The notes under the pieces: generated by a model | Told to the model about the DNA's origin: nothing | Seen by the model: the letters and a program-made list of their open reading frames with translations, nothing else | Database searches by the model: none | Part shown: positions 14,711 through 23,449 of the stretch, one piece after another | Position numbering within the stretch: the stretch's first letter is position 1 | Layout of the letters: each line of letters begins with the position of its first letter | Program-made: the position numbers and the translations under genes | Assembly: GCF_009690625.1 (NCBI RefSeq) | Contig: NZ_CP033878.1 | Span: 1,426,001 to 1,490,000, forward strand | Direction of reading: 5' to 3' | Source of the DNA: Halorhabdus sp. CBA1104 | Lineage (GTDB): Archaea; Halobacteriota; Halobacteria; Halobacteriales; Haloarculaceae | DNA: 64,000 nucleotides

Positions 14711-15757
14711 ATGGCGATGACGGATACCGACGACTCGGCCGCGGTGATGGAGGCCATCGAGTGGCGTCGCGGGCAGGTCAACGAGGCCATTCCGGAGAAT
14801 CTCCCGGTCGTCGAGCCAACGAAACTCTACGAGGCTTCACGGTATCTGCTCGACGCCGGCGGCAAACGCCTCCGGCCGACGATCCTGCTGCTCGCAGCGG
14901 AATCACTCGCCGACGTGTCCCCACGGAGTCAGCCCTATCGCAACTTTCCGACGGCCGGCGACAACCTCGACATGATGTCCGCGGCAGTGAGCATCGAGAT
15001 CATCCAGTCGTTTACGCTCATCCACGACGACATCATGGACGACGACGCCATGCGCCGTGGCGTCCCCGCCGTCCACGAAGCGTACGATCTCTCGACGGCG
15101 ATTCTCGCGGGCGATACGCTCTACGCGAAGGCCTTCGAGAACATGCTCGAAACCGGGGCGACCGGGGATCGGTCGGTCCGCGCGTTGTCTGAACTGGCCA
15201 CCACCTGCACGCAGATCTGTGAAGGCCAGTCACTGGACATCGAGTTCGAATCTTACGACGCGGTGACGACCGACGAGTACCTGGAGATGGTCGAACTCAA
15301 GACGGCGGTCCTCTATGCCGCCGCGGCCTCGATCCCCGCAATCCTGATGGGCCAAGAGGACAAAATCGACGCGCTCTACCAGTATGGGCTGAACATCGGA
15401 CGGGGCTTTCAGATCCAGGACGACCTGCTCGATCTGACGACGCCATCCGAAAAACTGGGCAAACAGCGGGGCAGCGACCTCGTGGAGGGAAAACGGACGA
15501 TCATCACTGTCCACGCCCGCCAGCAGGGCGTCGACGTGGACGGGCTCGTCCCCGAAGACGACGTGGAAGCGGTCGAGGAGGAGACTATCGAAGCCGCCGT
15601 CGCGGAACTGGAGGCCGCCGGCAGCATCGACTTCGCGCGTGAGACGGCCGAGGGGCTCATTCAAGACGGCAAGGACAACCTCGACGTGCTGCCAGACAAC
15701 GAGGCACGGAACTTACTCGAAGGGATCGCGGACTTCCTGATCGAACGCGAATACTGA
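14711..15757 (+). CDS. idsA: Polyprenyl (geranylgeranyl/farnesyl) diphosphate synthase
   Basis: This 348-residue trans-prenyltransferase condenses isopentenyl diphosphate with allylic diphosphates to make C15-C20 chains for archaeal lipids. The first Asp-rich motif LIHDDIMDDDAMRRG is near residues 99-113, and the second, QIQDDLLDL, near residues 234-242. GGKRLRP near residue 50 binds substrate. It directly follows RNase J and completes the isoprenoid set with mvk and ipk. Product length is not certain from sequence alone. Confidence 0.94.
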   Translation: MAMTDTDDSAAVMEAIEWRRGQVNEAIPENLPVVEPTKLYEASRYLLDAGGKRLRPTILLLAAESLADVSPRSQPYRNFPTAGDNLDMMSAAVSIEIIQSFTLIHDDIMDDDAMRRGVPAVHEAYDLSTAILAGDTLYAKAFENMLETGATGDRSVRALSELATTCTQICEGQSLDIEFESYDAVTTDEYLEMVELKTAVLYAAAASIPAILMGQEDKIDALYQYGLNIGRGFQIQDDLLDLTTPSEKLGKQRGSDLVEGKRTIITVHARQQGVDVDGLVPEDDVEAVEEETIEAAVAELEAAGSIDFARETAEGLIQDGKDNLDVLPDNEARNLLEGIADFLIEREY

Positions 15758-20000: not shown

Positions 20001-21053
20001 TCAGTCGTCAGTTTCGGCCACGCTGGCCTCAGCAGCGGCGGCTTCGGCTTCGTCATCGAGATAGTCGTCGGCATCGAGGGCAGCCTTCGAGCCCATCCCG
20101 CCGGCGGTGATCGCCTGCTGATAGTGATGATCGACGACATCGCCTGCGCCGAAGATGCCCGGGACGGCCGTCTCGGTCTGGCCACCGTCGCGGCCACCTT
20201 GTGTGTGGATGTAGCCCGTCTCGTCGAGTTCGACGTCGGTGTCTGCTAGGTAGTCGGTGTTTGGCGTGTGCCCGATGGCAAGGAAGACAGCACCGACATC
20301 TTGCTCGAAGTGTTCGACCTCGTCGGCGCGGTCGGAATCGAGTTTGTCTTTTGGATGCCCGTCGGGGTGGCGGACCAGCGAGACGCCGTCGATGCCGTCC
20401 TCACGGGACCCGTGGATCTCGACGGCTTCCGTGTTGCGCATGATCTCGACGTCACCAGCATCGACGTGTTCCATGATGCGGTCGACCCAGTAATCCTCGG
20501 CGCGGAACTCCTCGCGACGGTGAGCCAAGTACACCGTGTCGGCGAACTTCGTGAGGAAGGAAGCCTCTTCCATGGCGGCGTCCCCGCCGCCGACGACGAG
20601 CATGTCCTCGTCGCGGAAGAACGCGCCGTCGCAGGTCGCACACGTCGAAACGCCATAGCCCATGAGTTCGTCCTCGCCGGGGATGCCAAGCGTGCGCGCG
20701 CTCGCACCGCTGGCGGCGATGAAGGCGTCACAGGTGTAGACAGTGCCGTCCGTCAGTTCGACGCGGAACGGGCGGGCATCGTCGTCGATCGACTCGACGA
20801 TGCCGTTCTCGACGTCGGCCCCGAAGTTCGTCGCCTGTTCTTTCATGCGGTTGACTAGCTCGGTACCGTTGATCCCGTCGGGGAAGCCGGGGTAGTTGGC
20901 GACGTCGGTCGTCAGCGTCAACTGGCCACCCGGTTCGTCACCCTCCAAGACCAATGGATCGTTGTTCGCGCGACTGGCATAGACGGCCGCCGTCATACCG
21001 GCGATACCCGAGCCGGCGATGATCAACCGGCGGTGTGCAGCTTTCTCAGACAT
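20001..21053 (-). CDS. trxB: Thioredoxin-disulfide reductase
   Basis: This 350-residue flavoprotein transfers electrons from NAD(P)H to thioredoxin-like partners. It has the FAD motif IIAGSGIAGMTAAVYASRA near residue 10, the redox motif CATCDGAFF near residue 138, the nucleotide-binding VVGGGDAAMEEASF near residue 155, and the C-terminal FAD segment GIFGAGDVVDHHYQ. About 25 C-terminal residues beyond the usual end are acidic. The ATG at 21053 precedes the FAD motif at the expected distance. It is upstream of msrA on the same strand. Confidence 0.94.
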   Translation of the reverse strand: MSEKAAHRRLIIAGSGIAGMTAAVYASRANNDPLVLEGDEPGGQLTLTTDVANYPGFPDGINGTELVNRMKEQATNFGADVENGIVESIDDDARPFRVELTDGTVYTCDAFIAASGASARTLGIPGEDELMGYGVSTCATCDGAFFRDEDMLVVGGGDAAMEEASFLTKFADTVYLAHRREEFRAEDYWVDRIMEHVDAGDVEIMRNTEAVEIHGSREDGIDGVSLVRHPDGHPKDKLDSDRADEVEHFEQDVGAVFLAIGHTPNTDYLADTDVELDETGYIHTQGGRDGGQTETAVPGIFGAGDVVDHHYQQAITAGGMGSKAALDADDYLDDEAEAAAAEASVAETDD

Positions 21054-21553: not shown

Positions 21554-21575
21554 ATACCACGGCCGTTCGTGGTAT
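21554..21575. promoter_or_regulatory. Perfect 8-bp inverted repeat upstream of pyk
   Basis: The arms ATACCACG (21554-21561) and CGTGGTAT (21568-21575) are exact inverted copies with a six-base spacer. The repeat lies about 30-60 bases upstream of the likely TATA box, the usual place for an archaeal activator site or upstream operator. I cannot name the regulator. Confidence 0.55.
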
Positions 21576-21584
21576 ATTTTGCCG

Positions 21585-21602
21585 TATCAGATCGCTCTGA
21601 TA
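21585..21602. promoter_or_regulatory. Perfect 7-bp inverted repeat next to the pyk TATA box
   Basis: The arms TATCAGA (21585-21591) and TCTGATA (21596-21602) are exact inverted copies with a four-base spacer. The repeat ends two bases before the TATA-like TTTCATAT (21605-21612), at the position of the TFB-recognition element, so a bound protein could block or assist TFB/TBP. Confidence 0.55.
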
Positions 21603-21637
21603 AGTTTCATATCCCCAGGGGACAGAGGTCCCTAGGT

Positions 21638-21691
21638 ATGGCGAGCACCGTCAGCGGACGGCGGCCGTCACCCTCCACCAGGGGGTACTAA
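21638..21691 (+). CDS. Possible leader peptide upstream of pyk
   Basis: An ATG at 21638 lies about 29 bases after the centre of the TATA-like TTTCATAT and could be the first codon of a leaderless transcript. It opens a 17-codon frame (MASTVSGRRPSPSTRGY) that ends in TAA three bases before the pyk ATG. This layout is what a leader peptide coupled to pyk translation would look like. The peptide is too short for codon statistics, so chance is possible. Confidence 0.3.
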   Translation: MASTVSGRRPSPSTRGY

Positions 21692-21694
21692 CAA

Positions 21695-23449
21695 ATGCGA
21701 AACGCCAAAATCGTCTGTACGCTCGGACCAGCATCGGAGTCGAAAGAAGACATCAAGGACCTGGCCGAGGCCGGCATGTCCGTCGCCCGGCTCAATGCCA
21801 GCCACGGCTCACCCGAACACCGACGGACGATGGTCGAACGGATCCGCGAGGTCGACGCGGAGCTCAATAAGTCCGTCGCCGTCATGCACGACATCCCAGG
21901 GCCGGAGGTCAGGACCGCCCCGATCCGGGAACCGATCGAACTGGAGGGCGGAACGACAGTTCGATTCTACAAAGGCGAGGAAGCCACACCCGAAGAAGTG
22001 GGGCTATCTGTCGATATTTCAGTCGTCGAACCGGGAGACAACGTGCTGCTGGACGACGGCCGCATCGAGACGACCGTCGAGAAAGTCGAGGACGGCGACG
22101 TCTACGCCCACGTCGAGAACGGCGGCGAACTCGGTGCACGCAAAGGCGTCAACGTCCCCGGTGTCGAACTCAGCTTGCCGTTCCCGACCGAGAAAGACCG
22201 GACCGAACTGCAGGTTGCCGCCGAGGAGGAAGTCGATCTGGTGGCAGCGAGTTTCGTCCGAGACGGCGACGACGTCAGGAAGATCAGCGAGTACCTCGAA
22301 CAGCAGGGCACGGAAGTGCCAGTCATCTCGAAGATCGAACGGAAAGGCGCCGTCGAAAACCTGGATAGCATTATCGAGGCGTCCTACGGCGTGATGGTCG
22401 CCCGCGGGGACTTGGGTGTCGAGCTCCCCCTCGAAGAAGTCCCGCTGTACCAGAAGCGAATCATCCGAAAGTGCAACGAAGCGGGCGTCCCGGTCATCAC
22501 GGCGACGGAGATGCTCGATTCGATGAAAGATTCCCGGCGTCCGACGCGAGCAGAAGCCTCCGACGTTGCCAACGCGATTTTCGACGGGACCGACGCAGTC
22601 ATGCTCTCGGGCGAGACGGCGATCGGCGACCACCCGCCCCGCGTCGTCAGGACGATGGGCAATATTGTCGAAGAAGTCGAGCAGAGTGGGGAGTTCGCCC
22701 AACTCCGCCAACAGCGCGTCCCGACATCCGACGAGACGCGGACCGATGCGCTGGCACACGCCGCCCGAACGCTCTCTGAGGACATCGACGCCGAGGCGAT
22801 CGTGGCAGCCAGCGAATCCGGCTACACGGCCCTTCGGGTCGCGAAGTTCAGGCCACCGATCCCGATTATCGCCTCGACGCCCAGCGAGCGGGTCCGGAGA
22901 CAGCTCGCGCTCTCGCGTGGCGTGTACCCGACAACCGCACCGTACACCACCGAAGGAGCCGACGCGATCATCCAGAACGCGGTCCAGTCAGCACTCGAAA
23001 CTGGCATCGCAGAGAACGGCGATACTGTCGTCGTCATCTCGGGGATGATGACCGAACTGGACGGTGTCGACACGTCGAACATGCTGAAGGTCCACGTCGC
23101 AGCCGAGACCGTCTCTTCCGGTGAGTCGATCGTCGACGGACTCGTCACCGGTGAAGTGGTCAAATCCACCGACGGCGATCTCAGTGAGGTCCCCGAGGGA
23201 GCGATTCTGGCACTGTCTGAGTCCTTCGATGGCGAATTCGCAGGCGATCCTGGCAAACTCAGCGGCATTATCGACGGCAGCGACGACCGGCGCGGCCACG
23301 CGGCTGTCGTCGGGCGCGAACTCGACCTCCCGACGGTCAGCCACATGACTGTCCCGGACGATCTGGAAGACGGATCGACGGTCACGCTCGACGCCGAGCG
23401 CGGCGTCCTGTATAAGGGTCCGCTGGGGACGCTCAAAGACGAAAACTGA
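21695..23449 (+). CDS. pyk: Pyruvate kinase
   Basis: This 584-residue enzyme converts PEP and ADP to pyruvate and ATP, the last step of glycolysis. Conserved segments are NAKIVCTLGPASES at the start, ISKIERKGAVEN near residue 210, and MVARGDLGVELPLEEVP near residue 232. ATEMLDSM and MLSGETAIGDHPPRVV follow. Residues about 478-584 form an extra C-terminal domain related to PEP-utilising mobile domains (TGEVVKSTDGDLSEVPEGAIL, SHMTVPDDLEDGSTVTLD). Such a domain is known in some bacterial and haloarchaeal enzymes. The palindrome-rich upstream region points to regulation by carbon supply. Confidence 0.95.
   Translation: MRNAKIVCTLGPASESKEDIKDLAEAGMSVARLNASHGSPEHRRTMVERIREVDAELNKSVAVMHDIPGPEVRTAPIREPIELEGGTTVRFYKGEEATPEEVGLSVDISVVEPGDNVLLDDGRIETTVEKVEDGDVYAHVENGGELGARKGVNVPGVELSLPFPTEKDRTELQVAAEEEVDLVAASFVRDGDDVRKISEYLEQQGTEVPVISKIERKGAVENLDSIIEASYGVMVARGDLGVELPLEEVPLYQKRIIRKCNEAGVPVITATEMLDSMKDSRRPTRAEASDVANAIFDGTDAVMLSGETAIGDHPPRVVRTMGNIVEEVEQSGEFAQLRQQRVPTSDETRTDALAHAARTLSEDIDAEAIVAASESGYTALRVAKFRPPIPIIASTPSERVRRQLALSRGVYPTTAPYTTEGADAIIQNAVQSALETGIAENGDTVVVISGMMTELDGVDTSNMLKVHVAAETVSSGESIVDGLVTGEVVKSTDGDLSEVPEGAILALSESFDGEFAGDPGKLSGIIDGSDDRRGHAAVVGRELDLPTVSHMTVPDDLEDGSTVTLDAERGVLYKGPLGTLKDEN

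Follow-up and report, generated by a model that had tools for sequence, protein, structure and literature searches.

A leaderless-type mini-ORF ending at the pyruvate kinase start codon in haloarchaea, with candidate operators upstream in Halorhabdus

Small open reading frames (ORFs) that are translated from leaderless transcripts and coupled to the downstream gene have been described in mycobacteria, where selection was suggested to act more on the coupled linkage than on the encoded peptide (Shell et al. 2015, PMC4633059). In archaea, comparable arrangements come from Haloferax volcanii. Strict coupling was found for 13 of 14 overlapping gene pairs of H. volcanii and E. coli (PMC6728339); coupling requires an overlap or a very short distance and falls off steeply with distance, and coupled genes most often overlap by 4 nt or 1 nt (PMC10666635). 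Small upstream ORFs (uORFs) have also been sought in H. volcanii 5′-untranslated regions (5′-UTRs) of 150–250 nt, as proteins of low isoelectric point (PMC4983044). In the same organism, a Shine–Dalgarno (SD) motif was reported not to drive initiation in a 5′-UTR, and an SD motif inside an upstream frame was proposed to aid reinitiation (PMC3986360). Here, we describe an arrangement resembling the mycobacterial one upstream of the pyruvate kinase gene pyk of Halorhabdus sp. CBA1104, in a stretch of 64,000 nucleotides (contig NZ_CP033878.1, positions 1,426,001 to 1,490,000), referred to below as the window, by whose numbering all simple positions are given.

The host genome, a single contig of 2.63 Mb, encodes pyk at 21695..23449 on the forward (+) strand; the 584-aa product matches TIGR01064 with 526 bits and carries a phosphoenolpyruvate-utiliser mobile domain at its C-terminus, which confirms the identity given to the downstream gene in the original prediction. 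The nearest long ORF upstream of pyk lies on the opposite strand and begins at 21053. Between the two, the 17-codon frame that had been said to end three bases before the pyk ATG is present as described: a mini-ORF (MASTVSGRRPSPSTRGY followed by TAA; 21638..21691, + strand) begins with the ATG at 21638 and ends with the TAA at 21689–21691, followed by the three bases CAA and the pyk ATG at 21695. Within the frame, 9 bases before the pyk ATG, lies the SD-like sequence AGGGGG (21680..21685, + strand).

We consider it probable that this leaderless mini-ORF feeds pyk by termination–reinitiation, with two inverted repeats (dyads) further upstream serving as factor-binding sites. The core promoter, with TTTCATAT (21605–21612) as its TATA box, would place the transcript 5′ end on or beside the ATG at 21638 (predicted start 21636..21639, + strand, from the TATA-to-ATG distance), where ribosomes would initiate as on a leaderless haloarchaeal mRNA. 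They would translate the 17 codons, pass or pause at the internal SD-like AGGGGG and terminate at the TAA at 21689, with the pyk ATG, three bases downstream, as the site of reinitiation. The peptide itself would have no function of its own, the frame being kept for the delivery of ribosomes to the pyk start, while both dyads, upstream of the core promoter, would bind one or more transcription factors. From the sequence and its conservation we infer translation of the mini-ORF, reinitiation, factor binding and the position of the transcript start.

The arrangement is real and conserved. The leader ATG is kept in 7/7 Halorhabdus genomes and the full mini-ORF in 6/7. For a wider survey, 127 unique pyk upstream regions were assembled from 59 copies of the same GTDB family, the Haloarculaceae, and the best 80 of 254 loci, minus 12 duplicates. 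Simple sequence patterns assigned 50 of them to a leaderless-type class (a run of T some 30 bases ahead of the pyk ATG) and 14 to an operon class (a preceding frame with an aldehyde-dehydrogenase-like tail, the gene being named from the tail alone), leaving 63 in neither class. A mini-ORF was scored where an ATG opened a frame of 8–25 codons whose stop began within −8 to +9 of the pyk start. Such a frame occurs in 49 of the 63 upstreams of neither class, against a mean of 6.3 (standard deviation (sd) 2.2, maximum 14) in 500 shuffles of the last 90 bases; after the removal of similar leaders it occurs in 26 of 38 (shuffle mean 3.6, maximum 10), with frames of 10–24 codons. The leaderless-type class has it in 2/50 upstreams (shuffle mean 3.5), and the operon class in 1/14 (shuffle mean 0.3), the one being the tail of the upstream gene. 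At least one copy carries the frame in 11 of the 21 sampled genera of the family, one of these (g8) being doubtful; the automatic count of 13 was reduced by g4 (operon tails) and g11 (leaderless-type).

The stop, rather than the peptide, is what these frames share. Mini-ORF peptides differ between genera and are not conserved, and the stops fall at seven offsets and in different frames: +5 (24 cases), −4 (8), −6 (7), +1 (7), and +8, −5 and −8 (one each). For a stop at +5, the third position of pyk codon 2 supplies the first base, which must be a T, and the two bases after it complete the triplet; codon 2 is CGT in all 24 genes with this placement, and elsewhere in 1/43 genes of the same class and 0/50 leaderless-type genes. 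These codon-2 counts, like the A+T profile and the 41-leader and palindrome counts below, refer to an earlier sorting in which the class comprised 67 upstreams, four of which were later moved to the operon class. An SD-like stretch (GGAG, GAGG or GGGGG) is present in 47/49 pyk genes with a mini-ORF versus 4/50 of the leaderless type.

The start of the frame is placed with similar regularity. Twenty-seven leaders, of which one was afterwards rejected as false, have A+T peaks at about −30 to −24 and at −11/−10 when aligned on the mini-ORF ATG; aligned on the pyk ATG, the 50 leaderless-type genes have them at −30 to −26 and −11/−10, the first peak being partly there by construction since that class was chosen by its T-run, the second not. 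A ‘WW’ −10 element has been proposed for haloarchaea (PMC4983044). Leaderless-type pyk genes of other families have about the same TATA-to-ATG distance as the mini-ORF. When spacing from a TATA-like match was the sole criterion for choosing an ATG, one was found in 21 of 41 distinct leaders, and 19 of these 21 had a stop in the accepted interval, compared with a mean of 9.2 (sd 1.75, maximum 14 of 1000) when only the bases between that ATG and pyk were shuffled. A conserved frame start at the leaderless distance from TATA, together with a stop at the pyk start, fits a hand-over of ribosomes from one frame to the next.

How closely this resembles the described systems can be judged feature by feature. 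The mini-ORF and pyk lie on the same strand with the stop-to-start spacing of a pair coupled by termination–reinitiation, and the SD-like motif that is usual, albeit not obligatory, within the upstream frame of coupled pairs is there. Likewise, the H. volcanii pairs are same-strand, overlapping or a few bases apart, and the 3′ end of their upstream member contains an SD-like motif; however, those pairs consist of two ordinary genes that overlap mostly by 4 nt or 1 nt (PMC6728339, PMC10666635), whereas the partner of pyk is a mini-ORF of about 10–24 codons without a conserved product. The H. volcanii uORFs are likewise small frames upstream of haloarchaeal genes (PMC4983044); unlike them, the pyk mini-ORF starts at or near the 5′ end of a leader of about 57 nt. 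The nearest published case that we found is the mycobacterial one (PMC4633059), and, as suggested there, it is the linkage that is conserved more than the peptide. The mycobacterial study concerns bacteria and used transcript starts and ribosome profiling, while pyk is an archaeal central-metabolism gene with a predicted transcript start. Furthermore, the mycobacterial coupled class is defined by an RTGA tetramer, to which only the +1 placement (7/49) corresponds and the Halorhabdus stop at −6 does not; the pyk mini-ORFs without RTGA have their stops up to 8 bases before or after. Among the titles listed from a literature with little coverage of subscription journals, none dealt with a mini-ORF at a haloarchaeal pyk. 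On balance, we lean towards regarding the arrangement as an archaeal expression device not yet described, in which a leaderless mini-ORF without a conserved product, present across much of the Haloarculaceae and with its stop re-placed around the pyk start between lineages, would make pyk synthesis dependent on leaderless initiation and reinitiation.

Several observations weigh against coupling through the mini-ORF. Replacing the SD motif of one 5′-UTR in H. volcanii did not lower translation (PMC3986360); a leader thus needs no mini-ORF, and coupling is not a necessity. Compared with the 4 nt or 1 nt usual for coupled genes, the most frequent overlap at pyk, with the stop at +5, measures 8 nt, and in Halorhabdus the two frames are separated by 3 nt. 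Twelve of the 38 distinct leaders lack an ATG mini-ORF, although three of these have a GTG frame. In one Halorhabdus genome (G005) the ATG is retained, yet a leader that lacks 5 bases relative to most of its genus-mates takes the frame 275 bases into pyk; the sole sampled genome of genus g6 (L017) has no frame. The mini-ORF is therefore not indispensable. In 464 kb of the host genome with 324 ORFs taken as genes, the arrangement was found twice, against 0–3 times with displaced TATA windows, which makes pyk an exception in its own genome. The gene for glyceraldehyde-3-phosphate dehydrogenase (GAPDH) in 4/7 genus genomes also has a frame whose stop lies within the accepted interval (ATG at −35, stop at +1), although this ATG and the first base of the TATA-like ATTTACT are only about 9 bases apart. 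Finally, the sequences are related, so that the seven offsets are not seven proven origins and every count exceeds the number of independent events.

Part of this list would be expected if the mini-ORF were a chance open frame in a GC-rich leader with an ATG incidentally near the transcript start. Open frames are common in GC-rich DNA, one of 119 codons running through the dyads in the host DNA, and G005, L017 and the GAPDH frames point the same way. The excess over shuffles (49/63 and 19/21), the several stop placements, the use of CGT as codon 2 and the near absence of the mini-ORF from leaderless-type and operonic pyk all argue against such an origin, which we consider quite unlikely.

One site in the host genome may be recorded separately. 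At position 15098 (+ strand) of locus L206 (approximately G000:C1:425098), a mini-ORF encoding MVAGRRRAR, whose stop overlaps the next ATG as ATGA, lies at a near-leaderless distance from an A+T stretch and ahead of a 329-aa ORF.

A short frame that ends beside a gene also invites comparison with classical attenuators, in which ribosomes stalling on the mini-ORF, as an amino acid or a metabolite dictates, would decide pyk expression, and a small hairpin over the SD-like stretch is indeed predicted in some members of the genus. However, neither conserved regulatory codons nor alternative hairpins or a terminator, the hallmarks of attenuator peptides, were seen. Variable sites in the mini-ORF are distributed over codon positions 1, 2 and 3 as 8:3:3 (five in-frame sequences of the seven genus genomes), and there is no sign of selection on the peptide. 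The leader RNA folds no better than shuffled sequences (z from −0.86 to +1.20 for the six distinct leaders of the seven genomes), and terminator-like sites number 0 against 2.7 expected in 3.5 kb, in a simple scan with a bacterial consensus applied to an archaeal host. Because the peptides diverge between genera, third-position bias is absent, the simple scan showed no terminator-like site and the RNA fold is ordinary, attenuator control has no support here, and we regard it as highly improbable. The original prediction had proposed a regulated promoter with possible leader-peptide control; a regulated promoter at pyk is likely from the elements described below, and it is the attenuator-type control that is not borne out.

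The probable core promoter (21598..21612, + strand) consists of a B recognition element (BRE) region, TGATAAG, and the TATA box TTTCATAT. The assignment draws on invariance within the genus, TGATAAGTTTCATATCCC being identical in all seven genomes, and on equivalents such as CAAGCTTCTTATCCC in other genera, which share (C)AAGCTTCTTATCCC or similar about 70–90 bases before pyk; the Halorhabdus version of this shared element is AAGTTTCATATCCC, which contains TTTCATAT. The dyads had been placed just upstream of a TATA-like box that turns out to consist of the right arm of dyad 1 plus the following bases. That box, which adjoins dyad 1, is unlikely to be the true TATA box, although it may act as a second, weaker promoter. 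Since the element shared with relatives points to TTTCATAT instead, both dyads would lie upstream of the core promoter, and the right arm of dyad 2 extends into the BRE. The stretch between the TATA box and the mini-ORF (21615–21636), GGGGACAGAG..CTAG, is also conserved in the genus, the alignment segment that includes it having 22 invariant columns out of 30; in the host it contains an imperfect dyad, CCAGGGGAC/GTCCCTAGG, whose pairing is not kept in relatives.

Both inverted repeats have exactly the arm and spacer lengths first attributed to them and are 100% complementary. Dyad 1, ATACCACG-N6-CGTGGTAT (21554..21575), has 8-bp arms at 21554–21561 and 21568–21575 separated by 6 bases and is centred about 73 bp 5′ of the mini-ORF ATG. 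Dyad 2, TATCAGA-TCGC-TCTGATA (21585..21602), has 7-bp arms at 21585–21591 and 21596–21602 separated by 4 bases, lies at −53 to −36 from the mini-ORF ATG and abuts or overlaps the BRE. At least two perfect dyads (arms of at least 7, spacer of 3–6) occurred within these 141 bases in 0.43% of 3000 dinucleotide shuffles, and the density of the whole window predicts 0.12 per 141 bp; a chance origin of the two is unlikely. We treat both as candidate operators, putative binding sites of one or more transcription factors; their shared position on the upstream side of TATA makes an activator likelier than a repressor.

The two differ in conservation. Dyad 2 stands before pyk in 7/7 Halorhabdus genomes, six times exactly and once (G004) with one mismatch, and, with its spacer included and up to two mismatches allowed, this is its single place in each of these genomes. 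Perfect 8-bp arms of dyad 1 are confined to the host genome among the seven; the inner 6-bp arms TACCAC-N8-GTGGTA are exact in 4/7, and in the other three they are short of one pair without a compensating change. Absence of the dyads or the leader from close relatives would have spoken against the original prediction, which withstood that test through dyad 2, the leader ATG and, in most genomes, the full mini-ORF. Within the host genome, the only perfect copy of dyad 1 is that at pyk, with one other place at one mismatch (L002) and, among the matches listed, six at two; at up to three mismatches there are 73 places versus 49 for the reversed control. ORFs near L002 and near one of the two-mismatch places (L005) were inspected and yielded no gene name. 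Outside the genus, dyad 2 with two mismatches was found in 10/384 other genomes of the class, against 3/391 for the reversed control, which is near chance.

Whether dyad 2 is an operator at all may be questioned, as its right arm could be the BRE region only and the palindrome incidental. In some relatives, the DNA preceding the TATA box is similar to the right arm, whereas the left arm was seen in the genus only, and right-arm-like sequence stands before TATA without a left arm in other genera (TCTGATAAGCTTCTTAT in L069). Conversely, the left arm and spacer are near-invariant across the seven species while the adjacent upstream DNA is divergent: in an ungapped alignment of the seven Halorhabdus genomes, 40/45 columns are invariant from GTATATTTTGCC via dyad 2 and TTTCATAT to CCC, as opposed to 1/44 further upstream. 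Perfect dyads of such size are, moreover, rare by chance. We therefore find an incidental palindrome doubtful and retain dyad 2 as a candidate factor-binding site.

As to which factor might bind, the sugar-catabolism activator GfcR is the obvious suspect, and the dyads could be its operator with the leader adding nothing. A GfcR equivalog is encoded in the genome (on L168; NF045507, 329.8 bits, cut-off 300), and in H. volcanii GfcR activates the genes for pyruvate kinase and GAPDH I (PMC11519228). The location of both dyads upstream of TATA matches that of sites for activating TrmB-type regulators of Thermococcales (PMC10817205). Yet the same dyads were not found before another glycolytic gene, a result that covers the GAPDH upstreams of all seven genus genomes: GAPDH is the other named GfcR target, and these upstreams contain neither dyad and have CACG-N9-CGTG instead. 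Furthermore, the other places of dyad 2 in the host genome, two when the spacer is left free, each have two mismatches, and the mini-ORF would go unexplained. An account by GfcR alone is consequently unlikely in our view. A second locus considered for GfcR, C1:2430626, was rejected, as by eye it resembles a uracil phosphoribosyltransferase. The GAPDH upstreams themselves merit a remark: within about 150 bp before the gene (L138–L144), all seven Halorhabdus genomes share CACG-N9-CGTG, which is conserved as a pair, and ATCGAAAAACATTTACTCAAT, which hardly varies; these may be the gap operator and core promoter.

The host genome further encodes six proteins with a TrmB sugar-binding domain. Sites for TrmB follow the consensus TACT-N7-8-GAGTA. 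This sequence is present in full in 7/50 leaderless-type pyk promoters and in 0/67 upstreams of neither class in the earlier sorting, Halorhabdus pyk included. A similar palindrome, ACTCG-N4-CGAGT, occurs in 27/50 leaderless-type promoters versus 1/67 others, at about −56 to −43 and mostly centred near −49. Repression of pykA by TrmB is reported for Halobacterium salinarum, and in Haloarcula hispanica this control is reported to be absent (PMC10817205). The TrmB-type site at haloarchaeal pyk is also a palindrome shortly upstream of TATA, from which dyads 1 and 2 differ in sequence, and operators seem to have been rewired between the leaderless-type and the other pyk genes.

The gene is a known regulatory point of archaeal sugar metabolism, and its promoter design differs within haloarchaea: one group has a leaderless-type promoter, often with ACTCG-N4-CGAGT, and the other has a leadered, apparently coupled gene whose candidate operators are different. 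Many lineages have apparently converted a leadered gene into the second member of a leaderless mini-operon; if so, the synthesis of pyruvate kinase, the last step of glycolysis, depends on leaderless initiation and reinitiation. As a natural case replicated across the phylogeny, the locus lends itself to the question of how leadered mRNAs are translated in haloarchaea, where the SD motif is reportedly inactive in 5′-UTRs yet common inside upstream frames. Frames as short as these are easily missed in annotation, so that similar devices may be overlooked.

One further pyk deserves mention. In Salinigranum salinum (L077), whose genus is placed in another family, pyruvate kinase is 69% identical to the Halorhabdus protein and its gene has a coupled mini-ORF ending in TGAGATG; it is possible that pyk and its leader were acquired there by gene transfer.
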